From: Ulota crispa
Taxonomy: Eukaryota > Streptophyta > Bryopsida > Orthotrichales > Orthotrichaceae
Direction of reading: 5' to 3'
DNA length: 64,000 bases
NCBI GenBank assembly: GCA_963920765.1
Contig: OY987244.1
Location: 10,976,501-11,040,500 of the forward strand
Under the pieces are notes generated by a model. The model was given only the letters and a program-made list of their open reading frames with translations. It searched no databases and was not told where the DNA came from. How positions within the stretch are numbered: position 1 is the first letter of the stretch; each line of letters starts with the position of its first letter. Below, in pieces: positions 15,206 to 57,595 of this stretch. Made by a program: the position numbers and the translations under genes.

Positions 15206-15783
15206 CTCCCTCTATCCCAATATAAAGCTCTAGATTAGACATAGTTCTTGTCCCACTAAAAAGTTCCTTTTTGCTAATTTCAATTGCTGAGAAAGTGTAT
15301 TTCAAGTCCGATGATCTCATGGGGGCAAGTTAAGCAATTAAAGAGCATTCCTCTTGTAACAAGCTTTGCCTTGCCCATATGAGGTACCATTGTTGCTACT
15401 AATCTTTAAATCATCAATAATGAGGAGCTAGCAACATGTATAGATATGGTACTTTTGCATGGAATTTGGGGGCCCAAATGGCAATATCAAAGCTAGAGAT
15501 TTTGCACACATTTGGTAGATGGTATCTTGATTCTAGAATGCATGTGCCATTATAAAGACAAAAATAAAGAGGAGCCGGCAGCCTTTACAAACTATGCACT
15601 AGTATGGTACTATTTGCATGAAATTTGGGTGTCTAAACGGCAGCATAAAAACTTGAGATTTTGTAAATATTTGATAAATGGTATATTGATTCTAGAATGT
15701 ATTTGTCACTAGCATAATGACTAAAAACACAGTTAATCCCTCGTGAAGAAGTTTTTTAGAGTTTTATAATGGGACAAAGGGAG
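15206..15783. mobile_element. Stowaway-like MITE, 578 bp, TA duplication
   Basis: It starts CTCCCTCTATCCCAATATAAA and ends TTTATAATGGGACAAAGGGAG, the classic Stowaway (Tc1/mariner) terminus, with TA on both sides (15204-15205 and 15784-15785). The interior holds two diverged tandem units of about 150 bp (around 15430-15560 and 15580-15715), each with a TTTGCATG-AATTTGGG block and a TGATTCTAGAATG block. A close relative lies at 51376-51974. Non-autonomous. Confidence 0.9.
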
Positions 15784-18257
15784 TATAAATTTAATTGTTT
15801 ATATAATGTGAGAGTCAATGAATTTATTTTGTTACACAGTATACTCTATGCTTTGATAGGTTGCCTCTACTTCTTTTATGCCTCTAAAGGTGACATTTTG
15901 AGGAACAAAATATTTATTGTTCTATCTTCTAATTTTTCCTATGCTGCACAATTCAATCAATATTTAGATTGTGCGTTGATTTTGTGACAACACCAATTTA
16001 TGCTCCCTTCCCTTAAGGACTTAATGATCTAATAATGTTTGAGATTTCAAAAAAACGTGAATAAATTTCATAAAATTCAATCTTGAAAATGATTATATTA
16101 TGAATATCAATAATAATGTTTTTGACTATGACTCATAAATCATATCCAAATTGTTGGATCGATCCTGACACTCAACAACCCACTTCAATAAAGATTTAAG
16201 TAAGTAATTTGTTTTTTTCTTGGAAATTTATAATTGAGTAAAAAATAAAGATTTTTGACTAGCACGTAGAAAATGCTAAACTACAATCATGGCAGTTCTT
16301 TATTTTATTTTGACCACTCTTGATTTATGAATTTGTTTTTGAAGGATCTTTTGTTTGAATTGTAAAGACCAATTTTGAAATTTTCTACAACACAAATTAT
16401 AGGGAATAACAGAATAATTTAACAATATATGAATGGATGAAAAAATCAAATTTTTATACACCTGAAACTTGCTTACATTCATTTGGTGCTTTGACTTTGG
16501 ATGCTTAGCGGGTAAGAGCATCTCTTGCCACCTGTCAAATGAGCTCTTTGCTTTCCACTCATAACGGCTTATGCTGTTTGAGTCTCCAAAAGCATTGTAC
16601 TCATCAATGTGCAAGAGTAGGACCGTTCAGGTTTAGCCACTTTCACATCATATTTGAGGTTTCTCTAGGCCTCTTTCACGGTCCCTATCACGCACCGTTC
16701 ACGTTGCGTAACCAAATGTACCATTGCAATTCATTGTAATGCAAGTGCAGGCCTTGAAACCCTCCAAACTGCAGGGGAACTTCACCCTTGTTGCGCTACT
16801 TGCTGCTTCTGTCGCCCTTCAAACCTAGTTTCTAAGGGCTTCATTTGACGAGTGGCAGTAGATGCTGTAAAGAAGGGATTAAACTTTAGATGAACTTCAA
16901 AAAATGTATTAAACCACAAATTACCGCAACACCAAGTCCATCAATTTTCATGAATTTTGTGATCATAGCAATCATGGCTCAACAACATGCATTTCAGATT
17001 TAGAGTCAATAAAATAATATAAAAAATAAAGCATAAATATAGTATAGATTTACTAAAGCACAAAAATAGTAGCCTTGGCATAGAATATGAGTTGCGTACC
17101 ATTTTTGTTTTATTGAGAATGTATGAAGACTGCTCCTATGTAGACAATCAATGAATGTATAATAGGATAGAAATAATACCGGTATGTATCAAAATAATGT
17201 AACACACTTAGTGAATTCTCTAGTATTTAGTTTCCCAATTGTGTGTTGTTGATGATACTTATTTGAAAACAATGCAAAAATCTTAAGAATTTTTTAAAAT
17301 CTTCCTATGAATTTTTTCAAAGTATACATGAAATAAAAACAGGACAGAAATGGTATATGGGCCCAAACACGGATACGTATATTTTGTTGGAGACCCAAAA
17401 ATCGTACACTTAGAATTAAAATCATTTTAAATAAAAGTGCTAAGGAATAAAAGGAGTACCAATAACTCTCTTTGATGATCAAAATCCACCAAAACTACAG
17501 CTTATGGTCTAGATAACTTGTACAATTACACACACTTTAAAAAAAAAGTGTAATTCCAAACTTTCAAAATTATTTTAGTCTCACAGATGTTTAATTGCAC
17601 TAACAACGTACCTTTCATTTCAAATTTTGGAGTATATGTGCACCTAGCTAGGATGTAAAGGAAATCATTTTGTAAAAAATAATTGGAGAAACGACTATGT
17701 TTGCAAATTTGGTTCTATATATCCTTGAAGAATAGGAAAATCTTGAATTTTAGTGAAGAGTATCTCAAAAGTTGACTAGTATATTATCGTTCTACTAAAA
17801 AACCTATGTTTTCACACCTTACTTACATTGGCAGATAAAAGAAATTGATGATTCCATGTCTTTTAGCATTCACAGTGAGTTTTAACTACCAAAAATATTA
17901 TCATGACAATGTCTTGAAAACTTGTTTTATACCTTTGACTTTATGCATATATCATTCATTTTTGCAAAAACAATATCTTCAGACAAATTATGCATATTCC
18001 TACATAAACAGTACCAAATCATGCACATGATCATTCAACTTTAAGATGAGCTCTCATGAAAATTAAATAGTTTGGGGCAAGATTTAGTGGTACCCAATCT
18101 TGCTTGAACCCATATTAGATGACCTTTTATAAATATGTGTAGCTACACATGTTAAGGGCAAAGACTGATGACTTTATTTAGATTTGCCAAATTTGATAAA
18201 GTATAACTCATATTGTAATTTAGGAGATTGAGATGTCGATTGAATTTCTTAACACCT
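15784..18257. other. Intergenic DNA, nothing recognised
   Basis: No supported gene. Around 16490-16860 base composition is somewhat richer in GC and short open frames occur on both strands, but I found no splice-consistent coding chain or domain. Confidence 0.4.
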
Positions 18258-23929: not shown

Positions 23930-26900
23930 ATGGATGCGTTTCGGAAGCAGTTGGACGCTCTGATGGGAGCGAATCGCAACGGGGATGTGTTGGAGGTGAA
24001 GCGAAACTATTGGGACCGCGATGTCTGTCGTCTTTATCTCACAGGGCTGTGCCCGCACGACCTATTTCAACTTACGGTACGTTTGAGACCTTTTTCTTTC
24101 TTTCTTTCTGAACGCTGATGTCGAGGTTGCCCGGTAAACCTTAATGCTTGCCGTTGACAGAGTCTTACTTACGCATGTCCTTCGAGGTTCCAGTGATGTG
24201 CCCGATTTGAGCCGTGGATTGTATGTGATCGGCAGATTTTTAGGGCTTGGTGAAATGTACATAGTGGAACAATGAAGGTTTCGTTTAATTTAGTGTCTTT
24301 TTGAACGTGTTGTTCCATGATTTTAGTTAAATTACAGGATGATAAGATCTTTGAGTTTTCATTCAGAAATTACTGCACCAGTTTAAAGAGAATACATTTC
24401 GCAGAGGGTATGATTTTCACTTTAATCTGGTTTATTAGAGTTTTTAACATTGTTAACTAGGGTTTCAGAATATTTGGACAAATCATAGCCGTTGAGAAAG
24501 ATGTCCGTAAGCTTGAATCTACTTACCGAAGAGTCGAGGTGATCGTCAAGCACATAGGTTGAATTCAAAATTGTCAGTAGTCTGTGTTATTGGGGAATAG
24601 TTAAGGTAGCAACAGCCATAACCATCACCGTACCCATAACCATCATCTCTAAAATCTTGGAAAAATCTTGGAAAATCTGTGGAAGTGAATAGATGTAATT
24701 ACAAGGATGTACAACATGTGAACATGAAACCCTAGTGTTGGTATTAGGTGCAATTGCAGTCAGCTCTTTAAAAATTCACAACTTATTCTCACAGTATCCA
24801 AATAATACATTCAAAAGTGCAAACTCATCATTTTTCTCTTGCTAATAGGATCCTATACTTTGCTAGATGTTTATTAATAATCATCATGTTCAAAACCCTT
24901 AGTTTGACGGTTATGGGTGCTGGACCCTTACTAGTTTTCTGTACGTAATCACTGTGAAACCTATGCTTTTCATCAACGGCTAGGCCTGGATATATTTATA
25001 ATTTTCCATGAAAGCTTCTATTTTGTACCTTTTTAGTAGTTTTTAAGGCTTTCTGATCGCTTGTTCGCAGAAAATGGATCTAGGGCCCTGCTCGAAGGTG
25101 CACTCATTGCAACTACGGAAAGAGTATGAGGAAGCCAAGGCAAAGAGGAAGGACAATTATGACAGGGATCTGGAAGATTGTTTGGAGAAGCACATAATAG
25201 AGTGTGATCGCAAGATTCAACGCGCATTGAAACGTCTAGAAGATGATGAAGCAGGTGCGGCCACTGCAATAGCTGTTTCGGAGGTGACACAGGTTTGTTT
25301 ATCATTTCTGCTACTAAGCTTAGTCTCTCTCCAAGTGGTGAGAAGTCCTCGTAAAATTCTTCCGTTTGTGATGCAACTTACGCTTTTTGACATGCCAATT
25401 AGCATGTACTAATGGTGTGGCTACTCTTTTGCGTTATGAACTTATTTTTTGTCTGTATTGGTTTATGCAGTCCCCAGAAGCCACGGAGTATACCAAGCAA
25501 ATTAAAGAGAAGCTGAAAGCTGCTGAGTATCTGGGTAAGTTTCTAAAGTATTGCAAGATTTTTGGGAGAGTCTATACCAAAAGTTAGAACTGGAAGGTTT
25601 GGAATGTTCATATCGCCTTCAGTTTTCTACTTGTGATTTTATCGTTGTTTATGTGTAGATCTTGAGGGGCGGAGCGACGACAAAATCCGAATCATGGAAG
25701 TTGTTCATGAACTTCAAACGAAGCGTGCAGATAAACAGGTTATTCCGCACCGTAGAGTTTGCGTTTGATTGTCCTCTTATTGCAGGTTGGAAGGTTGTCT
25801 GTGGTCAATGGTGTACCAAGTTTGAGACTTTGTAATGGTGCATGTTCTAGACAGAACATGCTTATAAACTGCCATGTCTCGCATTCTCAAGTTCATAATG
25901 CTATCATTGGTATTCGTAGCAGTGAAATGTTTTAATATTAATTTTTGGACTAGGTTTTCAGAGTTTACCTGTTGTGTATTTCATGTTTGATGCGACTTGG
26001 ATCATTTACGTAAGGAGTTGGAATTAGCTCGTTTGAGAATTTTGGAGTTTTTGATGTAAGGTCACATGTGCAGCGACCCTTCGGTTCTTCATTACGTACC
26101 ATTTATTGTATGTATTGACCGTGGTATTTGGTTGTAGGCCATGTCTTTATTGGAGGCTTTCAACAAAGATAGAGCCCTCATGCCACAACCGTTGGCCAAT
26201 CCACCACCGCTTGCCCCTCTACCGACTCTTGTGGCCTTGCCTCCAGATGCACGGACTCAGGAGATGATAAAGGAGAAGCTGAAGAGAGCTGAGGAATTGG
26301 GTGAGTTGTTGGCGTGCCTTTGCCGTGCCATTTAGATATTTTAACATGAAAGAATCCGTAGAAGTTGCGCTCTTTTATGAGCTACTGTTTCTCAGTTTCG
26401 TTTCTAGTTTTCAGTGGTCTTTAGGAAGCTTTGTCATATTTTATATACTGTTGTGAGCAGGAGAGCTGGGGATGGTGGATGAGGCACAGAAAGCAATGGA
26501 GGAAGCTGAGGCTTTGAAAAAGGTGAGAAACTAAGTGATCAGTGTTTGATTGATTTTGGGCTTACTTCATTTGAAGCACAGTTGGTGTGGGTATATCCGT
26601 CGTTCCTTTAACTTCAGCTGGTTCACTCTCAATTGCGTGCTCAAACAAGTTGTTCTGTCTGCGCCCACATATGGGAGCCGTAAACAAACGCAATGCTTCA
26701 ATGTCTATGGGATGCATAGGCAGCTTGCTGTCTTCTATCAAATGAGTCCCGTTGAGTGGTGTAAAAGTTGTTAGAGAGCATGAGGTTCAAGATTGTGTAC
26801 TTAATAAATTTTGTAGTAGGTTGTGCGCGTGCCAAACTCATGGTACTGACATATTTGTGATAATTGCCGGTGATGGCAGTTGGGAGCCAGGCAAGAGACG

Positions 26901-33559: not shown

Positions 33560-36500
33560 TCAACTTCTCAAGTTACTGAGCGAACTGCCATTACCTCTCT
33601 GTTGAGGAGTCTTGTTTAAAATACCTCTTCCGAAGTACTCAGCAATCACGGAAAATCCATCATCCGAGTTCCGCAGCAGCTGAAAGAAAGTGTCGTGGTC
33701 ATTCACGTTGGCCTCCAAGGAGCGCTTCACGTCCAAGACTTGGCGGTTGTCAGTAGCGCACTTGGGGCATTCTTTCTCATTGTCGCCCAGGCAGCGCTGG
33801 TGGAAGGAATGCATGCACAGAAAGTGAACGGCAGGCAAATCCAGAGCTGATGTGCAGGCGGTGCATTTACTGAGCTGGAAAATACGTGCATGAGATCGAA
33901 GCTCTTGCACTTCAGCACGCATAGCAGCAGTTTCCTCCTGAAAATTGAATAAAAGTCCAACAACAAGAAGTTTAGAACCAAGCGCTACGCAACTTCCCAA
34001 AATACACATAAGGTAGCAACACCCATAAGCGTGGAATTAAGGATTTTGGAGTAGGGACCTTGAAAAAAATTATTGTCAAGCTAGCAGGAAGACACCAAAA
34101 ATATGCAAACATTTGTTCACAAAGATTTTTTCAAAGTCCAAAATCACTGAAAATGTATAGTTGTGTGTAGGAGATGTCTTTAGTGTGCTCATACGCTCAT
34201 AATACTAACTTGAGTTCTTAAATAGTGAGATGAGACACTCAAACCCATCATGCCAGTCACCCAAAACCATCACTTAGTCACTCATAACCATCACTTAATC
34301 ACCCGTAACCAATTTTTCAATATTTGTCAATCCCTGACAGTCTGACATGACACAGGAGTAGGTAACGCCCATGGACACCCTCTTGAGCATGGGTGCTGCT
34401 ACCTTAAGCATTTCCTAAAAATAATAAAGTGGTTTCATAGTTTAGTACATCTAGCTCATCTACTTTAGTATATACACATTTAGACTTTGCATAATACTAA
34501 GTTTTGTGAATGAAGCGGTCTAAGCCAGACTGGCGAAAAGGAGGAATCGATGATCAGTTTCTCTGATTATTACCCAAGATCATAAAATTGAAGCTATTTT
34601 GAAATAAGCTGGTGAAAAATCTAGACTAGATTAGAAATTCTGGAAGGTCGACCGAATGACAACACAACCCTAGGTAAATGTCCAGAACAGCTTCTTGAGT
34701 CAAGTCAAGTGCTAAATAACGGCAGGTTTCAGTCAATTCATAGAACTAGGATCCGTATCAAAACTTTGTCAATCGCCTACTGGAATTGTGCAATCATAAA
34801 AATGTATACAATCCAGTGAGACGATTATTCAGAACATGGATTTTCCAAACATTTTGATTAACCATTAACTTAGGAAATTTTGTTCGATTATGATGGTATT
34901 TCGTTTCGAGCGCATCAAACGCGTGTTTCAGTATATGTTGGGGTTAGCTTCAAAGCAATCCAATCTCAGCATTAATTCGTCAAGTAAACCTGGAAAAAGA
35001 AGCTTAAACCTCGATTTTTTTATGTCGTACTTGGCATTAATGGCGAAATTAAATAACCAGGTCAATCGACGATTTGAAATTTATACTTGATTTTAGTAGA
35101 TTCCAACAAAAGCAGATACGTACAAAGAGAGGTGGAGATGACACACAAAAACAAGGAATAAGTGCATGACGTTTAAGAGATAATAATGAAGATAAATCCA
35201 CTGGCAAACAGGTACCTGGTACTTTTCAATGGCTTTCCGGTCCTCATCAATTAACCGGGTTTCCTGCTGCAATTGCCGTGCAACGTACTCTTTCACCACA
35301 GCCAAAGTGAGATTAGGATTCTTGGAGAGCTTCTGCAGGACAATCAGAGGAGGGAGCAAATCATCACGCTCAATGTGCACCAATACTTCCCTCACTTCAT
35401 CGGAGCAGTTCTCACCGTGTTCCCCAAAGTAGGACAACACGTCGTTCCAAAGTGAGGAGTCTCCACCAAGCGTAGACTCGCCAAGGCGTTTACAAGTTGA
35501 AATCAGGCCTTGGTAGTCATGGTCCTTCATATACACAGCCAGAACCTCCTTGTAGAGTTTCATCTTCTCATAAAGAAACAAGAGGCCGTCCCGAAAGTTG
35601 TGCATCTGGCACAACACCAGAGCCAGGTCCACGTCATACCGAGGGGCATTTTCATAAGGACTCCATCCAAGCTTCAGTAACGAGAGTGCTTTTGCACGTC
35701 TTTCCACTTGATCTTCAGTAGGAACAACCTCGATTGTCTCTACTTCATGTTCCCTCAGTTCCTCCTCTGGATTGATATCAGCAACAGATTCCTCTGCTTT
35801 GCTTCTGTGAATTGGTAGCACAAGCCCCCCAATCCTCCCTACTGCTTTAATCACTTGACCTCCAGCAGCAATGACTTGACCCCCTGCAGCAATAACTTGA
35901 CCTCCAGCAGCAATGACTTGACCCCCTGCGGCAATGACTTGACCACCAGCTGCAAGAATCAAGTTCCCACGACTCTTTTCCTCAATAACAAGCTCGTCTG
36001 CAATGTCCTCCTCCATTTGAGAGTCAGGGTCCTCCGCTGGAATGGTCTCTTCAGTGAATTCCGGAGTGCGCAAATCTTCTGATAAATAAAGCTCAAGCAA
36101 AGTATTGCAAAGCTCCATGTGTTGAGGGGAGTCTTTCACGGCTTCTATGTATTGCTCCAGGAACACCATCAACCACTTCGGTTGGTCAATAAACACATGG
36201 ACAAATTCAACTGGAGATGATAACACGCTGGACAACCTCCCGCTGCTGGATGGTTCAGCCTGTGAAGTAGTGCTGTTGGTACACAGCTTCAAAAGCGCTG
36301 CAGTTGTTTCGGCTGGCTTATGCTCCACGAGCACTTTGCCGTACTGCTTTAATGTGATTGTAGATTCGTATACGGAAAGCCCCGTGATGTACTGCAAAGC
36401 TTCCTGGTAACGCTTCAAATCCTCCAGTAGTATTTTCAAGTACCACTCGTGTTCTCCGGCCCGCATTGCTACAAACAGAGCATGCTGATAATATCCGGCT

Positions 36501-39500
36501 GCCCTGCAAACTCGAACAGCTGTTTCCACATCGAACTGCGGCTCCCCTTCTTTGCCTTCCTCTCCTTTGATAAAATCGTCCAGCTTCGACACGTCTTTAA
36601 GTTTTGTGTAGCAATTGAGAAGCAGAGTGGTATGATCTGCTGTTGCTAGCCCTTTGTCGTGTAACTTCTCTAGGTAATGAGTCAAGTTGTGTATACGTTG
36701 TGCATCTAGAAACTTTTGAATCACATAGGAAGGCTCCAGTTGCCCAATCGTGCGGATGTATTGGGCCATCGCCTCATCGTAGTTCTGTTTGCCGTATAAA
36801 TGATCACCGTACTTGCGCATCACCTCTGCAGTCGCTGCAGCATCAGCTTGATTGTTTTGGACCTACAATGCGAAACTGGGTTAGCAATAAAAAAAATCGT
36901 TCAAAATGAAGATGATAACTTAAGCTTCCAGACGAACAAGAGTCATGAAAAGTACTAACCAGATTGATAGCGATAGTGTACAAGCTCTTGCGGAACAGCA
37001 TATCCAGTTTACCGCCCATGTCTTTCTCAGCAATACATAATGTTTGCTGATCATTCGTAAGCAGTATGATAGTGCCCCACTCGCATAAAATGTGTGCAAC
37101 GTCACCGACTGAGATACTGTATACTATGAGCTTGTTTTTTAGGTCGTAGATATTTAAGACATTCTTGTTAGGATTGCGAGGTTCAGCTGAGACCACTACA
37201 AGGTAGCCTCGAAACCAAGCAACGAACAGCTTACTTCCTTCAAACGCCCAACAGGGTCCTCGACCATCTACGTCATAGAAATACACCGCCTCTGGGCGCC
37301 CAACCACAAGGTCCTGTCCAAAGTCAACCAATTCCCGATAAGTGTTCAGTGAAAGTATATCACCTAGTATTGTCCACGTATTGACAAAAGGACATCTGAA
37401 ATCTACATTTATACTTCATATGACTTCTTAGTAAAAAGATATCAAATCCAACTTAGAAGCTCATAGCCAATTATAGTAGCTTCCAAAACATACTTTTATT
37501 GTCTGGCGTGATGGTATCGTCTTGATTTTGGGAAAATAATGCTAGCTTCCTTGCAGCGTCTTAAGTAATTCATTTTAGCTCCTAGAGATGTGTACGTGAC
37601 CACTTTTAGGTACTTGAGAGTTTACTACCCTTGTTGTAATCGGCAAAGGGCAAAAGAATAACAAATATTTTCATAACGCATAGAACTAAGAAACACTTAC
37701 CTGGGAAACACAAGAATTGACCTCTTATACAACCTATAAAACCTCAAATTTCTGAGATAAATAGGATCACATCAGATTCAATTTCCACTGACCTGATTAT
37801 CACTCATGGCAACACACCGTCCTACTGCGCCAATCTGATCAATAACATTCTTCTGTGGTGAATGATTGTGCATGTCAAAGAGGTTCACAGATGACGTGGT
37901 CACTGCAAAAAGCTGGAGAATTTGGCCTTCAACACGGAAACCCAAGCCCGTCACAGGAGAGGCCGGTTTTTGACCATCCGCAGTAGCAGGGTCTACTAAA
38001 AGCCTAAGCCTGTTGACACGGTTTCGTGCGATATCACCTTGTATGCAGTAGATTTCGCCTGAGTCAAGCCCTATGCATACGAGTAGAATTGGAGGAGCCT
38101 CCTCGTACACCAGAAACGACGTAATCTGGAGATCCAAGCACACTCAATCATTTATAAAATATAGTTTCTTATTTATTATCACAAAAATTCACAATTCAAC
38201 TTTACCTTCCAAACCCCTTCATAATGTGCCTCGTGGGGATACATATCCGAATCCCATCAGCATCCTTAAACCATATATCTATATTCTCACTCAATGCCAC
38301 TCAAGTACCAACCTCAAACCAATGAAAAAGCTACCAATTGCTAAGATTCCATTCCATTCAAGGAAGTGCCTTAGTTTCAACCTTCTCACGCAAGGCTTCT
38401 CAGAAGTAAAGAAAGTCCGACTAAATCACAGTACAGTACAAGGTTTTGGAAAAGACACCAACAAGATTATAAAGGTTTATGACTAATTCAATACGACTTC
38501 GACAATTACAAAACAACTTGCTTTAGCTTCCGTTTGATCTTGCAAACAACAATTAAATTTCAAAATTGATTCACACCATGTGCTCATAGGTCAAAACCTT
38601 ACTTAGGAATTTAACTTACATCACAGGGAGTCCTATAGCCAGTAACCTACTGCTTTACTTATCAGAAAATGAAACTGTATCACGTGTGCCTACGGAGACA
38701 GATTTTTGGTTTTATTAACAAACCTGTGCTTCGGGATACTTGGAGTCAAAAACACGGATCGAGCGGATACAAGCAGGTCCAGTGGTACTAGAGCCTTCGG
38801 GTTGCATCTTGTCAAGGTCCCACATCTTGAGATACAACCCTAAAGCAGGAGCCTCGTCTTCTCCAAGAGATATCAAAACATGCCGTTGCTGTCAACACCA
38901 ACATCAATGCTCATAAGCCAAAAGAACGCCTGAAACGCTCTCTAAAACGTTCAAATCAGAACAAAATTCAATCGAACATGCGACATCAATCCTCGTAAGC
39001 CAAAAAAACGCTTGGAGCGCTCTCAAAAACGTTCAAAACAGAAAAAAAATCAATCGAACATGCAATCAATCCTCGTAAGCCAAAAAATCCACTGAAACGC
39101 TTTCAAAAACGTTCAAAACAGAACAAAAATCAATCGAACATGCGACTTGTACAATGACAACATAAAATTTAAAAATTGGACGAGAACAGACGGAGTAGAG
39201 TCTAGAATTTGCGTATCCATTACATTACAATGCGCCTTATAGCCATTGACATAAAAAACGGGCAGAAGCGAAACCCTAATTTACAAAAAAAAGGAAAAAA
39301 CAGAGGTTCGAAATGCAACCGGATTACTGTACCTTGAGCTGCTGGACGTGGAAGACATGTTCGGAATGCGCCTGAAAGCTGTAGTTGAGCTTCAAGCCCC
39401 GATCGAGCACATGCAGCAAGCCGTCTTCGGCGCCGAGGACGATCTGGCCCCGCCCGCTGGTACTGCACACCACCTTCTCCTTCACCTCCTCCGCCACCGC

Positions 39501-42072: not shown

Positions 42073-45000
42073 TCACACTGTACCTAATGTTGCATGTCTT
42101 TCACTAAGATCAGATTCCTGCGCCATTTCGGTGTCCTTCACATCGAAAGCAGCGTGGATGATGGCCTTCATTTCCATTTGATGAACTTGGAAACTCCCAG
42201 TTGCGGTGGTAGCGCTGGTAGCACGACCGACGAAACGGACGTCTGTGTGCTCACGTCCTCGGCAGAGTTCACGTAGGGCGGTAGCCAACCTGGGTTGGAC
42301 ATACGACCATGCTCCCATGTTCTTCGGCTCCTCCTGCATTCCCCATAAGGTAGCAGCACCCACAACCGTCAAACTAAGGGTTTTGAACATGATGATTATT
42401 AAACAACTAGCAAAGTATAGGATCCTATTAGCAAGAGAAAGATAATGAGTTTGCACTTTCAAATGTATTACCGTATTTGGATACTGTGAGAATAAGTTGT
42501 GAATTTTTAAAGAGCCGACTGCAATTGCACCTAATACCAACACTAAAATTTCATGTTCACATGTTGTAGATCCTTGTAATTACATCTATTCACTTCCACA
42601 GATTCTCCAAGATTTTAGAGGTGATGGTTATGGGGACAGTGGCGCTTATGGGTGCTAATACCTTACCAGTGATTCCTAGCGTAAACAACAAACATAAACT
42701 CTCTCGGCAATTATGCAGCAACTCGCCCATTTATATCCAAACATCTCTCCACAGCTCCCAAAAAACACACCCCCACACGTGTTCAAATGCTTGAGTGACG
42801 CAAATAGCATCCGCAAGAGAGAGGAGGTTGTCCATACCTGGACCCATGTAAGCTGTGCATTCGGGTACCGGTTGATAATACTGGCTACACGATCAAACGG
42901 AAAGGGTGCAATCTGCTCCAGACGTACTATGGAAACGTTTCGAAGTTTCCGACTGCGTCTTGCATTGCTCAGCAAGTAGAAAACCTGTAAATATACTAGA
43001 TTTTAGATTATAGATTATTTCCTCATGTACGGCATAAAAATGGCAGCAACTAAGCCCTGCCGCTCGCATTCATGTAAGCAACAGCAGTCAAACGGATGGA
43101 AGAGATGCTTTCTATGACCTTTCCAGAACATAGAAGTACACTTTGTATTTCATTGCGTGGAAGCAAGTCAGTTCTCTGACGAAGATTGTCTGAAATATCT
43201 CCATCTGCAATTACTCGTCTGGTGGAGCGAAGGAGAAATGAGAAACACGAAATAGGGAAGGCAAACGACAAGGTCAAAGCAAAGAAAGAACCACAAGTGA
43301 AAGAAGATGTGCAAATTTCAGAAGAAATTGTGTAAGTACCTGAAGTACGTTCCTGAAGCCATGTCAGCGAGCTTGGAAACACATGGCTTGTGATGGAGAA
43401 GATACTGCGTCACCGGTTTAAAAGAAAATGAAAAATTAGAAGCACGTCATGGGTGCACTGTTGTTCACCTCTTCCAACTAAAGACATCATCATGTAATGC
43501 ACCAATACTATTTGGAGGTCCTCTACATAAAGATAATTGCGAATTCCTCTTTAAGAGACCCACGATTATATAACAGGACATTCTAAATCTTGAAAACGGA
43601 GATAACCGAATGATCATAGGTATTTTGCAGTTTGTAGCACATTTGAAGAATGTTAACCAGAAATTTAAGCCTACAATTGCAGGAGACCAATCAACTGACA
43701 ATGGCACCCAACTCAGATGTTGAAGCTCCTAATTACGTGAGAGAACACAAAAGGACCACATTTACTAACCCACCTTTGGACTCATCACAACCACAGGCTT
43801 GGAGTAAGGCCGGTTCACCTACACCAAAGCAATCGCTTCCGGCAGTGAGAGTCAGAAAAAGGGTTAGCTAAACCACATTCAAGCATGATTCCACAGTTTC
43901 TAGAAGAAATACTGGCAACTCACTTGACGCCGCAATAAATGAAAGAAGTTTGCTGGCGTTGTGATGTTAACCACGCACCTGTCAAATTCACATAAAACGA
44001 TTCAGTAAAAAAGATTCAAAGAACTCAGTCCTGTAAGAAGAAAACCTTGATTATACCATTACCATCATTGATATCAAACTTTCGAGTCCTATTAGTTACT
44101 CAAATCAATTCAAAGGCACTAGACTTGGCCAAGGATAATGAATGCATTCTAGTACATGAGTGAAAACATTACAAATTGTGATCCTTCTCTGCATTGCGTC
44201 GCAGCCACTGCGCCATGAATACATCCCAATCTCGTCTGCACAAACGAAAGCGCAATATTTACCACCGGAAACAAATTCGGAGTAACTTCCAAGATAAGAG
44301 TGGCAGGTGCAGCAGGCATCTCAAGAAGTAAGTCAGGATGGACTCTACAAACACAAATTAGCCAGCAACGGTACATCCAATACTGGTCACGCGTCGTAAG
44401 ATTTAAGTCAACTGGAAGCTCGATCAGTAGGTACTGAACAGTTCGACAAGAAACAGACATCACCTTTCAATTCGGCCTGCATGTCCAAAGTCAAACTCCT
44501 GCAACAGAATCTCCACACGCTCAGAGTTAACCCCTTTCATCCCTGCTTTCAGATCAGCTCGGGTCAAATAGCCTTTTCCATCTGGAAAGTCACACCCACA
44601 TTGTCAGTATGCACTGTTCTATGACATAACACAACTTCTGAACCCCAAATCTCACTGAATGACAGAATCCTACCAATACAGACCTTTATCAAAAGCAGCG
44701 AAGCCAGCCTCCATGTGCAACTTGTGCTGAGGTCCAAAACCGGGAAGATGATCTGGATCATCGTTGCAGAGCTGATGTCCAACAAGAGAAAAGCTTCGTT
44801 AATGTAAAAAGCGTCAACTAAAGAAGTCTACAACAACCCAAAGAAAGATACATGTGCCGATGTAAGTACCTGTAAAAAACGCTCTAGTCTTGCAGAACTG
44901 TGCTCAGGTCCTTGGCCATCGTAGCCGTGGGGCAGTAGTAGGACTAAACCCGTAGGAGTCATCCACTTTTCCTCCCCACAGGCGATGAAATTATCAATCA

Positions 45001-48000
45001 TTGATTGTGCGTTATTGGTAAAGTCTCCAAACTGCCATTACAACAGTCATCGATTCAGAAATCTGCAATCGGGATTGAAGTAATAAGCTTCTTCCTTTCT
45101 CAATTTCCGTTTTTCACCATCATCGTTCAAGCAACCGATGGACGTGTCAAAATCAACGACTATAATCTGGAATAAATGAGAATTCTACCTGAGCCTCCCA
45201 CAGGACAAGAGCGTTCTCGTTTTCCAAGCTATAGCCATACTCAAATCCCAAAACGGCAGCCTCAGACAAACTTGAATTGCACACAACAAACTCAGCTTGT
45301 CGCCCAGGAGAGATATTATTCAGCGGTATGTACCTGGGAATTAGTCAGCAACAATCATATCATCATCAACACTCTTGGTTTTCCTATTGAAGCCTAGGCT
45401 CCCAGTATACTAACCCACAAGTATAATAAGGGATCAATAAGCAGAAAAACACACCGCTTTGCTGTAGACTGATCGTAAAGGACAGAGTGGCGCTGATTGA
45501 AAGTGCCTCGCTCACAATCCTGACCACTAAGTCTCACAGGAAAATGAGGATTTTTTTCAGGTGTCTGCCCTCGCGTTGGATCTGCATGCACAAGCAGCGA
45601 CCTGCAGAAATGCGCAGTATTAGATGAGAGGAGCAAGGTCGTCAAAATTCAAGCTAGTGCATTGACTTTGTAAAACGATGAATCTGCACTAAACTACGAT
45701 GCAACCCGGAAAATCGTTTGGCACTCACCCCATTGCCAATGCTTCCGCCATAGCCCAATCGATTCCATCTCCAGTTTCCATCATGTGCGCCCTTGATTTC
45801 AGCAAATTTTCTACCTACAACTTGCATGACGCCAAAATTAAACAAGAGGTATGACGAATTGGTTATAGCAATATGTTAGATGGTGTCCTTTACTCAGTTC
45901 GAAGGAATCATAGCACCAACTTTGAAACCTAAAGATGATGGTTGTTTTAGTCGATGCTTACATCGGGATGCAAGTTGAACTCAGCAGGTAGAGTACTAAT
46001 AGCAATTCCCTGCAATGAAATATCCGGTGTAGCGTCATGTGCGGTCAACTCAGAATTGCGTCGAATTCAATAAACATGAACATCTACACCAGCTCTATAA
46101 TATCACATAAAATAGGCCAAACTCGCTGTAAGGAAAGCAAATGGGGTTGAGGTCAAGTCTGTGGAAATCTTCTTACCACATTTCGAAGACTCTCCAAATC
46201 TAACCCAGTTGGCTGGATGTATCGCTTCGAGCTCGACGATCCAAGAGCATCACCTGAATTGTATTTAATTATGAATGAGTCAATAGATCCTTCACTTGCA
46301 AATTCATCTCCTAGGTTTCGATCTTTAATGCTTTAATCTAATTCACATCTTAGTATCTCTTAACCAAAAAAAAAAACATTACCTTGCCAATTGCTTGCCA
46401 GCCATTCATGCACAGTAGGAGCATAGGAGTCGGCAGCAGCATACTCAGCTTCAAACTTAGCATCCACCTCATCTACCCACTTATCCAAGTCCTGTAAACA
46501 ATGGATAAGTCTAATTATTAGATAATCTGGAGATCAAAATTTCACGCCAATTGAAAACACACATCGCAAAGAGTCACTTTCTGGTCACAACCACATTAAT
46601 GATAGAAGAACTAACATCCTGGGTGATGATGCCTTCGTTGAGAAGTTTTTTTGAGTATATCTGCAGAGTTGTGGGATGGTTCTGAATTTTCTGATAAGTC
46701 AAAGGTTGTGTTGCTCTTGGATCATCCTGGCACAACCAACGATTCAATTTTCAGGACAATCCAAAAGCTGCAGAGAAATTAGCAGATCCTGTGGCCCACC
46801 ACAAGATCCTGTAACTTCTTTTTTTCTTACACATACGGCTGGCAGCCACAACCAAATCGCAGCAAGAAGTAAGAAATAACTGGACTGACCCTGCCCGGCA
46901 TTTCCCTGCATTTCCTCCCAGGGCGACACCTCGCCAATGACCAGAGTTTTCTATTTCCCATCAAACCAAGTGATAGAGTTTGAGATACAGATACCACTGG
47001 GAATTGAACGATCATGTAACTGTTTGACTACTAGCTTTGATGTACCAAATACTGAGATGTCAAAGAAGAGCAATATTGGAAAAGAACGAACTTGCTCATT
47101 ATGACCATAGCGCCGGTAGCAAACAAGATCCACAACAACATCGGTTTGAAATTTCTGTAGAACATCAACAACAAGGTTAAAAGTCCAATTCACGGATACA
47201 ACCACTGACCAACGCTTCTAAAATACCTCCAAGACGATCCAATGCATGAATTGGCAAATTACTATTTAATGTTTACATCAACGATTCCAAAAAGCAAGAC
47301 GCATTAGAGAATCAGAAAAGAAAGAGCACAGAAAGAAACCTGGCGCCAATCTACAGCCAACCGACAGCAATGAGCCACACCTTCCGGATCATCTCCATTA
47401 CAGTGGAAAATTGGTGCTCCTACACCCTGCATAGATGTCACGAGTCTACGCTAAGGTTTCAAACTTAATTGCTCCAAAACATTTTAATTAGCTCTCAAAG
47501 TGTGGTCGCAACCTTGTAACTTCAACATGAAAATGTGGCTGAATGTAAGTCCGCAAACATGAGAGCTATGAGTTAATGGGAGAGCAAATTACTACGACTG
47601 GTGTAGTCAGAAACGGTAACAAGTAGAGTACCTTCGCAACATCACTTGGGTGAGGAGAGGAGCGAGCAAGTTTGGGGTCTGTTGTGAAGCCTATTTGGTT
47701 ATTAATGATGACATGGATAGTTCCTCCTGTCGTGTATTGTGGTAGATCTGAAAGCTTGAGGTAGAAACAAAAACATTCATCCAACCATCACAACAAATCC
47801 TGCCACGATCAGCAGAAAACCTATACAAACTTCTTACAATCAATTATAAATTTTTAAAGACAACCAAGACAAAGGGTCGGAGCTATTTGAGCACACACCT
47901 GCATAACTTCTGCAGCAAGGCCCAAGCCACTGAATGCAGCGTCACCATGAAGTAAAAGCCCCTGCACCCAGTACGTCATGTGTAACTTACATCAATGGGT

Positions 48001-50675
48001 AACAATAAGATAAAGCACCACGAAGAAACAGAAAATCCAAGACCTTTTCATAACTATCACAATCACGGTGATTGAGGAAAAAGTCATATTCATATAACAT
48101 ACATCTCATTCTACGTACAACATCCACAAATAACAGGCACCGCCCATTTTAATCAGCACACCCTCCAGAATCAGTCTTTTCAGCAAATATCAGCCTCCAA
48201 TTCCTACAGGCAATTGAATTGACAGTTTAACACACTCGACATGTAGTTCTCTGACCAGCTATCCTGCTACAATATAAATTAGGGAGATAGCAAGACATGA
48301 TAAGAATCATGTACAACGTAACAGTACTACAATTGCTATGCTGAAAATTACATACCATGTTTTGCAATCTTGCGGTGTCCCCAGTAAAAAATTGCTTGGC
48401 ACGAGTCTTTCCCAAAACAATAGGATCAACTGCTTCCAAATGGCTTGGGTTTGGTAGAAGCGAGAAGTGAATCTGCAAAGACCAAACACTTCTAGAAAGC
48501 ATTACAGTTATACCCATCGCAACTAATCTAATAAGGAGCTTCTAATGTAAGACGTAAAATTGGTGCTCCATTGAACAGGACATTACCTTTTTGTCACCAA
48601 AAGCCAGAGTACCGCGAGTGCCCAAATGATACTTGACATCTCCAACCTGTAAAAAGTCGACGTCTCCCACATTTTTGAACTCTGTTATGATGCTTCCAAG
48701 TGGCTTTGAGAGGATCGTGTGCAGCACATTCAGCCGCCCCCTGACAAGATAAGTCACATTTAGACGCGAAGCTTCTATTCTCAAGGAAACCAAAAAAATC
48801 GTAAGGTTAATTTACATTCTCCTCGTCCTGAACTCAATGCAACAACTAGGGACGCAAGAGCCGAGGATGAGAACCTGTGTGACATTCCCAGCTCAATGGC
48901 TTTGATCCCGCTCTCTGCAGCACGCTGCGTCACTCAGTTCAACAAATATCAGAATAGCAATTCATTGTAGACCATGCCTCAAAATTACTCTCAAGGAAAA
49001 ACAAATCTTAGTGTAGATGCAAAACTGTACACATGAGCATCCGGTAACTCCTATTCCTTGCACGAAACGTTCACTCCTGAACAACTGTTGACTGGCTGAG
49101 TAGCATTCACTCATTGACTTGTTTTAAGCGCGAACCTCAATGAGCGCGAAGAGACCAGGGATTAAACTTTCACATCCTTCAATTCCAAAACGTTTGGAAG
49201 CCTGAAATTTTGTTGCAAGAAAACGCTCAAAATGATCTGTTCATCCACAAAAAAGTGGCTTAAGAATCTGACAAACAGTCACGCTGCTCACAACAAGAAA
49301 CGAAAAGTCATCAATGAAGCTACACGTGAAGGTTGAGAGATACCAGCATAAAGCAAGTGATACAAGATCCGCCGCTGAAAAGAAGGCAGAAAGAGAGACC
49401 GTGCCTGCGGACGCTCCACCATAAGGCGGATCCAATCCTTAGCAGGTTTAGAAACAACATGCTCATGCTCAACGGTGGTGGTGCCACAGTAGCTTCCTCG
49501 TAGCAATGCCACTACTTCATTCACGGTCCAAAACAGCTGCGTAGCCTTCGATATTCGCAGATGATCGCCCAGATAATACCTAAACAACAAACCAACTGTG
49601 AAATTGTCTGCACTTCGGTGAGGTTACTTACCCTAGATGCAATGGCAAGATACAAATGCAGTCACAGATTGACACGGACCTTTTATTGGGATCCACGCCC
49701 GTCAATCCCACGGCGTCAAGGTTCAACGAAGGATAATTCTTCAGAAGTTCAAATAAATCTTTCGCATTCTCGGGCTCAGAGTACTCTACTACATCGCTCC
49801 CTTCCACTAGTCGTCCCAATGTCCGTCCCAGTGGATCTGTCACATCCCATGGACTCAAATCATAAGTACCCTAATCATTACCATAAAATCCTCCAACATA
49901 GTCATCACTTCGGTTCACCACGCAATTGCAATGACCTTATAAACGATTCTCAATTTCAGGAAGAGACACAATAAGCTTAATTGTTTCAAAAGCCACTCCA
50001 AGATCCAAGCGCCAGTTCCTATCCAAATTTTGTAGAAAGAATTCAAATAGAACTGAATTTGATCAATCATCAAAAACCTCCGCAAATCTGTGGATAGTTA
50101 ATCTTCCGTTCCGCCGAAATTACAATTTCCTCGATCGATAGCAGAAACGTGACATTGAGCTTCGAAATTTGAAAACAACTTCAAAATTCAAGCGCCAAAA
50201 CCATTTCAATCCAAATTTTGCAAAAAAATCCAAACAAGTCTGAATTTGATCAATCATCAAAAACCTCCGAAAATCAGTGATAGTTTATCTCCCGTTTCCG
50301 CCGAAATTACAATTTCCTCGATCGATAGCAGAAACGTGGCATTGAGCTTCGTAATCTCAAAACTATTTCAAAATTCAAGCGCCAAAAAACATTTCAATCC
50401 AAATGAAATTCAAACAGCACTTGAAATCGATCAAGTTCCTTACCAAGAGCTGCCACGAAATGTCCCCGACTGCGGAAGGCGGTGACGAGCGAGGCAATTT
50501 TGAGTGTCTGGTCGACGAGAGTGATATCGGACGGCGCCGCAGGGGCGTGAGCGAAGAAGCGAGAATGACGAACCGGAGTGCGGTATCCATCTCCGACGCC
50601 GATTGTCTTCTTCTTCCACCAGCTTGTCCGCCACTCGCGAGCGGCCACTACTCGCCATAGCCCGGCGCTCACCAT
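42073..50675 (-). CDS. OGDH: 2-oxoglutarate dehydrogenase E1-type subunit with EF-hand insertion, 1069 aa, 28 exons
   Basis: E1o is the thiamine-diphosphate enzyme that decarboxylates 2-oxoglutarate in the mitochondrial TCA-cycle complex. Exons in transcript order (high-low): 50675-50444, 49836-49680, 49579-49344, 49236-49136, 48924-48875, 48740-48587, 48472-48356, 47961-47899, 47754-47632, 47426-47340, 47154-47092, 46726-46616, 46491-46383, 46253-46177, 46009-45962, 45814-45729, 45601-45455, 45333-45189, 45031-44870, 44771-44684, 44581-44464, 44235-44173, 43978-43924, 43818-43774, 43404-43340, 43218-43119, 42984-42838, 42333-42073; 3210 nt, every phase consistent. An Arg/Trp/Lys-rich start suggests a mitochondrial presequence. 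E1o blocks [52 protein letters not shown] and [19 protein letters not shown] are present. Residues 757-846 hold a paired EF-hand absent from canonical E1o. The usual N-terminal E2-contact segment is missing. It could be a 2-oxoadipate-type (DHTKD1-like) relative, but the core reads closer to E1o. Confidence 0.93.
42345..42665. mobile_element. Intronic MITE in OGDH intron 27, relative of the LUC7 intron copy
   Basis: Left end TAAGGTAGCAGCACCCACAA and reverse complement of the right end TAAGGTATTAGCACCCATAA. The interior aligns in reverse orientation with 24602-24930 over almost its whole length. On the gene strand the element ends about 11 nt before the splice acceptor (AATGCAG) of the last exon, so it supplies nearly all of the intron's 3' part. 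Confidence 0.8.
50006..50400. repeat. Tandem duplication of about 185 bp in OGDH intron 1
   Basis: CAAGCGCCA starts units at about 50006, 50189 and 50376. The first two are complete and share TGATCAATCATCAAAAACCT and CGAAATTACAATTTCCTCGA; the third is a short start just before exon 1's donor. Non-coding. Confidence 0.85.
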
Positions 50676-51375: not shown

Positions 51376-51974
51376 CTCCCTCTGTCCCAATATAAAGTAA
51401 AGTTCCAAATTAGGTATAGTTCTTGTCCCACTAAAAAGCTCCTTTTTGCTAATGTCAATTGTTGATAGACGAGTTGATAGAGCATTTGTCATGTTCAATG
51501 GTCTCATGGGGGCAAGTTAAGCAATTAAAGAGCATTCCTCTCCTAACAAGCTTGACCTTGCCCATATGAGGTACCATTATTGCTACAAATCTTTAAATCA
51601 TCAATAATGAGGAGTTAGCAACACGCACAAGTATGGTACTTTTTGCATGGAATTTGGGTGCCCAAACAGCAACATCAAAGCTGGAGATTTTGCATACATT
51701 TGATAGATGGTATACTGATTCTAGAACGCATGTGTCATTAGTACAAAAATTGAAACAATGAGGAGCCGGCAGCCTTCACAAACTTTGCACAAATATGATA
51801 CTTTTTGCATGGAATTTGGGTGCCTAAACGACAACATAAAAACTTGAGATTTTGCAGATATTTGGTAGGTGGTAAACTGATTCTAGAATGCGTTTGTCAC
51901 TAGCATAATGGCTAAAAATACAGTTAGTCCCACAAGGAGAAGTTTTTTGGAGTTTTATAATGGGACAGAGGGAG
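51376..51974. mobile_element. Stowaway-like MITE, 599 bp, close relative of 15206-15783
   Basis: It starts CTCCCTCTGTCCCAATATAAA and ends TTATAATGGGACAGAGGGAG, with TA on both sides (51374-51375 and 51975-51976). It aligns end to end with 15206-15783, including the two internal tandem units (TTTGCATGGAATTTGGGTGC, TGATTCTAGAACGC). Non-autonomous. Confidence 0.9.
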
Positions 51975-52333
51975 TAGAATACAACCTTTTTCTATATATA
52001 GAAGAATACAACCAAGAATAGAATACATAATCTAGAATAGAGATTAGTTGAGAAAGACTACCATGATGCAACCTCCATTGACATGTTTGTCTTTTTACAA
52101 GGAAGAAAAGGGTACATGCATAGATTGAAGAGAGGGGTACATACATAAAGTGGTTTGAATTTTGAAGTGAGACTTTATTTTGAATTGAGTTAGTGGCGTT
52201 TGTGAGTTAACTAATCACTTCTAGTTTAAATTTTTAAACTGACCATAGTTTGTCATAAAATTGCTAGCATAAAGCTATTTTATTGCAAGGATATTCCTAT
52301 TGCTTCTGTTGATATAACGAGTACTTGTACTTG

Positions 52334-56876: not shown

Positions 56877-57595
56877 TCCCTAAAGGACCACGGGCCCTTT
56901 TGGGGGACAAATGAGATTTTGGGCATGTACCTATGGCTAAATTACTTTGCGTGATTTTATGAAATTTTAATTGAAGGTGAGGAATTCAAAAATCTACGTA
57001 GAAATGTAATTTGTTCTTCATTCTGACATTTATTGAAGAAGCTAAAAATGAATTTACGGAAAACAAGGGACTTTGGGCAGCCCAAAAACTTCTTTAAAAT
57101 TTGCGTTTTTTTCAAATAAAAATTTGAAATCGGCTCTTTAGACTTATATAGATGTGGGGAGCTTTGAATCATTTAATTATGATAGATGAGATGAAAGTTA
57201 TGAGAAGTTTTAGTTTGCGGGTAGGTGTGATTTTGAGAGAAACCACACCTAAGCAAAAACTAAAACATCTCATAACTTTCATCTCATCTATCATAATTAA
57301 ATGATTCAAAGCTCCCCACATCTATATAAGTCTAAAGAACCTATTTCAAATTTTTATTTGAAAAAAACACAAATTTTAAAGAAGTTTTTGGGCTGCCCAA
57401 AGTCCCTTGTTTTCCGTAAATTCATTTTTAGCTTCTTCAATAAATGTCAGAATGAAGAACAAATTACATTTCTACGTAGATTTTTGAATTCCTCACCTTC
57501 AATAAAAGCTTCAAAAAATCACGCAAAGTAGTTTAGCCATAGGTACTTGCCCAAAATCCCATTTGTTCCTCGAAGGGACAATGGTCCTTTAGGGG
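56877..57595. mobile_element. 719-bp near-perfect palindrome, fold-back element
   Basis: Two arms of about 350 bp are inverted copies around a centre near 57237 (TAGGTGTG ... CACACCTA). The arms are so alike that 69 consecutive codons read the same peptide from each (56957-57172 minus and 57301-57531 plus). The right end is GGACAATGGTCCTTTAGGGG followed by TTAA; the left TTAA is mutated. Sequence is shared with the right end of 18727-21207. The peptide is not a known domain, so the shared frame most likely only reflects the palindrome. Confidence 0.9.

Follow-up and report, generated by a model that had tools for sequence, protein, structure and literature searches.

Within the window analysed, 64,000 nucleotides of Ulota crispa DNA from contig OY987244.1, the stretch 42073..50675 of the minus strand encodes, as judged from its sequence, a 2-oxoglutarate dehydrogenase E1 (E1o) with the catalytic residues intact. 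Analysis of the exons, together with profile and structure-database searches, confirmed that this chain contains a genuine coding insert of 91 residues, assigned by profile to the EF-hand pair. The segment is encoded by three exons and lies in the surface loop known in the related enzyme DHTKD1 as Delta3. This bore out an initial annotation of the same DNA, which had proposed that an E1o carries a paired EF-hand within its catalytic chain: the protein passed the E1o models, and the segment matched EF-hand profiles as well as lobes of calcium-dependent protein kinase (CDPK) and calmodulin.

The gene was modelled with 28 exons from a proposed ATG to the stop codon, using exon borders and matches to a bacterial E1o profile. 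In this model, AG acceptors were present at all of exons 2-28 and GT donors at all of exons 1-27; exons 2-28 were in phase without internal stops, giving 1003 residues, or 1088 with an exon 1 of 85 residues. When 375 minus-strand peptides were compared with the 968-position bacterial E1o profile, 21 matched, collinearly over profile positions 166-967, and exons 2, 14, and 15 had no match of their own. Exon 1 was placed, in an in-frame version, at 50421..50675 (minus strand), ending before the donor at 50420; its exact 3' end is uncertain, since the strongest-looking donor (50444) is out of frame with exon 2 and four in-frame donor-acceptor pairs are present at this junction. The C-terminal part of exon 1 was read as the first conserved E1o helix. 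Its N terminus is basic (nine Lys and Arg residues and two Asp and Glu residues in the first 45) and was read as a putative mitochondrial presequence, the enzyme being presumably mitochondrial. Intron 1 carries at 50021-50404 a tandem duplication of 187 bp (2.0 copies, 88% matches) adjoining the end of exon 1.

The neighbouring genes are LUC7 (plus strand) and VPS11 (minus strand), one or the other of which was matched by eight of the 10 peptides scanned; with these neighbours the locus corresponds to ordinary nuclear DNA, and in our reading the LUC7 and E1o sequences point to a green-lineage (streptophyte) genome. An Rfam search gave no matches and a tRNA search none either. Several repeats were observed. 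Three adjoining inverted matches (90-96%) link 24662-24930, in the LUC7 gene region, with 42346-42616, in the final intron of the gene for E1o, a pattern that would be expected if a single dispersed element had been inserted in both places. A repeated element, roughly 600 bp long and itself containing a repeat of some 160 bp, occurs at 15223-15805 and at 51398-51996 (pieces 77-88% alike), the second copy lying immediately upstream of the proposed E1o start. A foldback is found at 56896-57577 (arms of 338 nt, 94% complementary, spacing 6 nt). The VPS11 open reading frame includes a 21-bp tandem repeat at 35849-35955 (5.1 copies), which is translated into repeated heptads, and the region of the same gene an 80-bp tandem repeat at 38901-39146 (3.0 copies, 86% matches).

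The whole protein scored above the curated cut-offs of TIGR00239 (877.4 bits vs. 770) and PRK09404 (1014 bits vs. 764), and with a smaller margin above that of PRK12270, the model of the actinobacterial-type multifunctional oxoglutarate decarboxylase/dehydrogenase (919.3 vs. 878). Some motifs had looked DHTKD1-like at a first reading and an N-terminal docking segment was not detected, which would suit a 2-oxoadipate dehydrogenase of the DHTKD1 type, bearing an EF-hand, instead of E1o; this reading is scarcely credible, given that the E1o cut-offs were passed and that, among PDB chains, human OGDH matched at 756 bits and DHTKD1 at 587 bits (168 bits better for OGDH). The substrate pocket also argues against it. 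Four pocket residues separate OGDH (Phe, Tyr, Phe, and Glu) from DHTKD1 (Tyr190, Tyr370, Ser263, and Asp707) in the description given by PMC7340257, and the protein studied here was OGDH-type at all four places (motifs KRF, GDVKY, NNQIGF, and GPEH) and DHTKD1-type at none, the residues having been placed by motif and hand count via the M. smegmatis chain, the positions so obtained differing from the published ones by no more than one residue. In the best 80 bacterial loci the four patterns were readable in 14, 78, 78, and 80 cases, respectively, and were OGDH-type in every case. The fourth place is less discriminating, because PMC8146983 reports Asp there in two bacterial E1o (E. coli and MsKGD), vs. 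Glu for OGDH in PMC7340257. Exon 19 (44870..45031, minus strand) contains FGDF and, in the DHTKD1 numbering of PMC7340257, the equivalents of Asp677, His708, Arg712, and Arg715, all of them kept, with spacings from the histidine of -31, 0, +4, and +7.

Downstream of exon 19, exons 20-22 encode the 91 residues between FLQ and VVNITTPAN. By the exon model and the EF-hand profile, exon 20 (44684..44771, 88 nt) holds the start of the Delta3 region and the entering helix of EF-hand 1, and exon 21 (44464..44581, 118 nt) the remainder of loop 1 with its exit helix, then the helix that enters loop 2 and the greater part of that loop; exon 22 (44173..44235, 63 nt) supplies the end of loop 2 and the exit helix, and the E1o core, as recognized by the bacterial profile, resumes in exon 23 (43924..43978; all on the minus strand). 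The region 44173-44771 delimited in the initial annotation coincided exactly with these three exons (44235-44173, 44581-44464, and 44771-44684). Its statement that about 90 residues stand where canonical E1o has about 25 agreed with the 91 residues of the insert and with the approximately 28 residues of human OGDH (hand count, chain numbering); the figure of 25 holds for human-type E1o only, because bacterial E1o has about eight.

A search of genome contigs returned at least 591 matches, at least 590 of them relatives, and the 80 best-scoring loci, whose titles are all bacterial, were used for comparison. The spacer from the Arg715 equivalent to the FHxxRR motif was 104 residues here vs. 21 in 79 of the 80 loci (one was unparsed), and the insert was absent from all 79 parsed. 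By two cruder ways of counting the spacer, 23 and 14 loci, respectively, were unparsed; in the rest the spacer was constant and short, one locus being one residue longer. When viral contigs were searched with the full protein, four pattern matches and no relatives were obtained, and with a two-sequence alignment as query 88 pattern matches and again no relatives.

The fold assignment was based on profile and structure matches. The isolated 91 residues matched Pfam EF-hand_7 (PF13499) with 34.3 bits (E 3.1e-8; cut-off 30), EF-hand_6 with E 2.8e-7, and EF-hand_1 with E 4.5e-6, so that the profile search proposed as a check in the initial annotation found an EF-hand signal, which in the context of the whole protein amounted to 25.4 bits (E 1.9e-5) and was below the cut-off of 30 for EF-hand_7. 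A PDB search with the insert gave 304 chains at E up to 1; among the best 60 of these, which were looked at, the top match was the CDPK AK1 (2aao; E 6.4e-11), followed by calmodulins at 2e-8 and weaker.

The insert also behaved as coding sequence. With a codon model trained without exons 20-22, it scored 0.36 bits per codon in frame, compared with 0.20 for the other exons, which were part of the training set, and with 123 overlapping intron windows, whose mean was -0.22 (sd 0.085, maximum -0.014). A transcript without exons 20-22 would be 269 nt shorter and out of frame, and among the six skips tested the frame was kept only without exon 22 alone (63 nt); because of this frame shift, any active enzyme that the gene produces should contain all or most of the lobe. 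A retained intron was ruled out by the AG/GT borders, the continuous phase, and the coding bias, in agreement with the earlier description of three in-phase exons with normal splice sites. Classic symmetric exon shuffling was likewise ruled out, as the introns on either side of the three-exon block are in phase 0 and phase 2 (relative to exon 2). Starting exon 22 at an acceptor farther upstream (44344 or 44342) was also discarded since, in our own reading, this shifts the frame and loses the last EF helix. The out-of-frame junction of exons 1 and 2 at the strongest-looking donor could point to an error in gene model or assembly, with exons 20-22 untranslated or part of another gene. We regard such an artefact as extremely unlikely, because the three exons lie on one strand between collinear E1o exons, with codon bias and a frame that the triple skip disrupts, and the flanking LUC7 and VPS11 are ordinary nuclear genes.

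Both loops are interrupted by introns, loop 1 occupying 44684..44690 and then 44553..44581, and loop 2 44464..44492 and then 44229..44235 (minus strand; exon model and check of loop residues). Counted from exon 2 they are residues 718-729 and 750-761, and they start at 803 and 835 in the model with the 85-residue exon 1; their sequences were as first annotated, the residue numbers 784 and 816 given at that time reflecting another 5' model. In the PROSITE-type pattern of EF-hand loops, the canonical Ca2+ ligands are at positions 1, 3, 5, and 12. Loop 1 has Asp 1, Asp 3, Lys 5, Gly 6, a hydrophobic residue at 8, Thr 9, and Asp 12. Loop 2 has Gly at 3 and Ala at 5, and thus lacks ligands 3 and 5, and has Asp at 12. 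Gly 6, hydrophobic 8, and acidic 12 are present in both, with Asp and not Glu at position 12 in each case. Neither loop fits the pattern, loop 1 failing at position 5 and loop 2 at positions 3 and 5. According to a review of plant calmodulin-like proteins, positively charged loop residues can perturb binding, and Asp12 moves selectivity towards Mg2+, yet it is very frequent among these proteins (PMC5983762). From their residues, the Ca2+-binding loops look weakened, and a regulatory or docking lobe that is metal-free or responds weakly to Mg2+/Ca2+ appears likelier than a sharp Ca2+ switch.

Direct Ca2+ control of the enzyme, as first annotated, would require that matrix Ca2+ acting on loop 1, and weakly on loop 2, opens the lobe and moves E1 activity up or down, in the manner of animal OGDH. 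Such control is possible, although on the whole we consider it unlikely. It would accord with the ligands and structural residues kept in loop 1 (Asp 1, Asp 3, Gly 6, hydrophobic 8, Thr 9, and acidic 12), with a top PDB match that is the lobe of a Ca2+-dependent protein kinase, and with the high frequency of Asp12 in plant calmodulin-like proteins (PMC5983762). One loop can be enough, as in the plant channel TPC1, where only one of two EF-hands appears to serve Ca2+ activation (PMC8890496), and animal OGDH has a Ca2+ site, together with a motif at the Delta3 equivalent as reported in PMC7340257. On the other hand, Lys 5 in loop 1, Asp 12 in both loops, the missing ligands 3 and 5 of loop 2, and the failure of both loops to fit the EF-hand pattern argue against it, as do the possible perturbation by positive residues and the Mg2+ preference associated with Asp12 (PMC5983762). 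The claim was therefore unsupported in the form in which it had been made. The accompanying statement that the sites of animal E1o are of a different kind was correct for DADLD, near the N terminus (PMC7969005), but left aside the second motif, at Delta3 (PMC7340257).

The same features bear on a second alternative, namely that the insertion is specific to the lineage and, although folded, has no functional effect, being tolerated at a loop of variable length. The erosion of the metal ligands and the variation in loop length (about eight residues in bacteria, about 28 in human, 91 here) would fit it. Nevertheless, Gly 6, hydrophobic 8, and acidic 12 have been kept in both loops, the profile match of the isolated lobe is significant, and the codon bias is at least equal to that of other exons; taken together, we judge an inert insertion rather improbable, and more so than the Ca2+ switch.

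The position of the insert within the enzyme suggests how the lobe might act. Counting from the conserved histidine, exon 20 begins at the equivalent of DHTKD1 residue 719, which places the insert in the Delta3 loop, defined in DHTKD1 as the 14 residues 720-733 (PMC7340257, section 3.2). As described in that source, Delta3 of DHTKD1 packs against the interdomain linker, which runs across the allosteric-activator sites of the bacterial enzyme, those for acetyl-CoA and AMP, and the helix before Delta3 starts at the acyl-transfer residue His708 and bears Arg712 and Arg715 of the salt-bridge network at the dimer axis (PMC7340257). Lying at the end of the helix that starts at the His708 equivalent and bears both salt-bridge arginines, the lobe could alter the contact of E1 with E2 or with the interdomain linker. 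Variants of DHTKD1 give a mixed picture: R715C weakens E2 binding, and G729R, within Delta3, was as stable and bound E2 as well as normal when examined in vitro (PMC7340257, section 3.7), so that Delta3 need not matter for coupling; other studies of G729R, cited in PMC8146983, favour a role in the interaction between E1a and E2o. The literature on G729R, as far as covered, is divided. The Delta3 place is thus suited to allostery, though at most putatively sensitive. The site may also have gained extra elements repeatedly, as a Ca2+-binding motif in mammals, a unique loop in DHTKD1, and the EF-hand pair here; for mammalian OGDH, PMC7340257, citing Rigden and Galperin 2004, attributes regulation by Ca2+ to two motifs, an N-terminal one and one in the loop equivalent to Delta3.

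The explanation that we favour, with about even confidence, is an E1o with intact catalytic residues in which the EF-hand pair in Delta3 would fold and serve in regulation or docking, its Mg2+/Ca2+ response being at best weak and mixed. A pair of calmodulin/CDPK type, with one near-canonical and one degenerate loop, would have been built into the Delta3 surface loop; once folded, it may act through Delta3 on the dimer axis and on the engagement of E2. Any response to divalent ions would probably be weak, shared between Mg2+ and Ca2+, and mediated by loop 1 only, with loop 2 in a structural role.

As regards other routes to E2 and to Ca2+, the N terminus was examined for the segment believed to mediate the binding of E2 and E3 in the human enzyme (PMC8146983). 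A profile was built from 25 bacterial E1o proteins out of 78 that were close to full length, the remaining 53 being dropped as the segment was not found in them by pattern; in a control with the human reference segment (YVEEM ... LENPKSVHKSWDIF), it gave 16.7 bits for the segment, 12.5 for its second half, and 3.6 for its first half. This profile had no match in the 1088-residue model, and among the 375 minus-strand peptides of 41-58 kb the best score was 4.3 bits (E 0.7). A docking segment that is split by an intron or diverged could escape the profile, because even the human first half scores only 3.6 bits; here the segment is either split by an intron, diverged, or lost. In the event of a loss, the EF-hand lobe could take its place as a docking element, a bold reading that we hold to be very unlikely. 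Motifs of the DADLD, DxDxD, and ESDLD-like types were absent from the 1088-residue model, of which the N terminus is the uncertain part; in animal OGDH the DADLD site, near the N terminus, was shown to be essential (PMC7969005).

Among the papers listed in searches of an open library, none was seen to describe an E1o with an EF-hand pair; such a protein may already be annotated elsewhere, for instance in UniProt, InterPro, or a eukaryotic genome. Human OGDH (PDB 7wgr; TIGR00239) has in common with the moss protein the catalytic core, the substrate-pocket residues, and the dimer-axis arginines; in contrast, the 91-residue Delta3 segment with its EF-hand lobe is found here, whereas the docking segment and the DADLD motif were not. 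The animal Ca2+-sensitive OGDH isoform with DADLD in exon 4b (PMC7969005) resembles the present protein as an E1o that may bind a divalent metal at a site of its own. Its DADLD is a short DxDxD without Gly 6 or acidic 12 (PMC9177970), and the EF-hand pair stands elsewhere in the chain. DHTKD1 (PDB 6sy1 and 6u3j) shares the E1 fold and is reported to have its own longer Delta3 loop (PMC7340257), but it differs from the present E1o in the four pocket residues and in its Delta3, which at 14 residues has no room for an EF-hand pair. A further precedent is given by the mitochondrial ATP-Mg/Pi carriers, which a title cited in PMC7050145 presents as fused to an EF-hand domain. With the CDPK/calmodulin lobe (PDB 2aao, AK1) the insert shares the helix-loop-helix pair, the spacing, and the hydrophobic pattern; unlike that lobe, it is nested in an enzyme, and ligand 5 of loop 1 and ligands 3 and 5 of loop 2 are replaced. 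Plant NAD-GDH2 belongs to an enzyme family other than E1o and catalyses a different reaction. It is a plant mitochondrial enzyme of glutamate and 2-oxoglutarate that also carries an EF-hand, and it provides a precedent for an EF-hand in a matrix dehydrogenase (PMC8890496). The same review considers matrix Ca2+ control of the Krebs cycle central in animals and "less clear in plants" (PMC8890496), and with an EF-hand lobe in the E1o loop that adjoins both the dimer axis and the histidine of transfer to E2, the plant Ca2+ question becomes testable on one protein.
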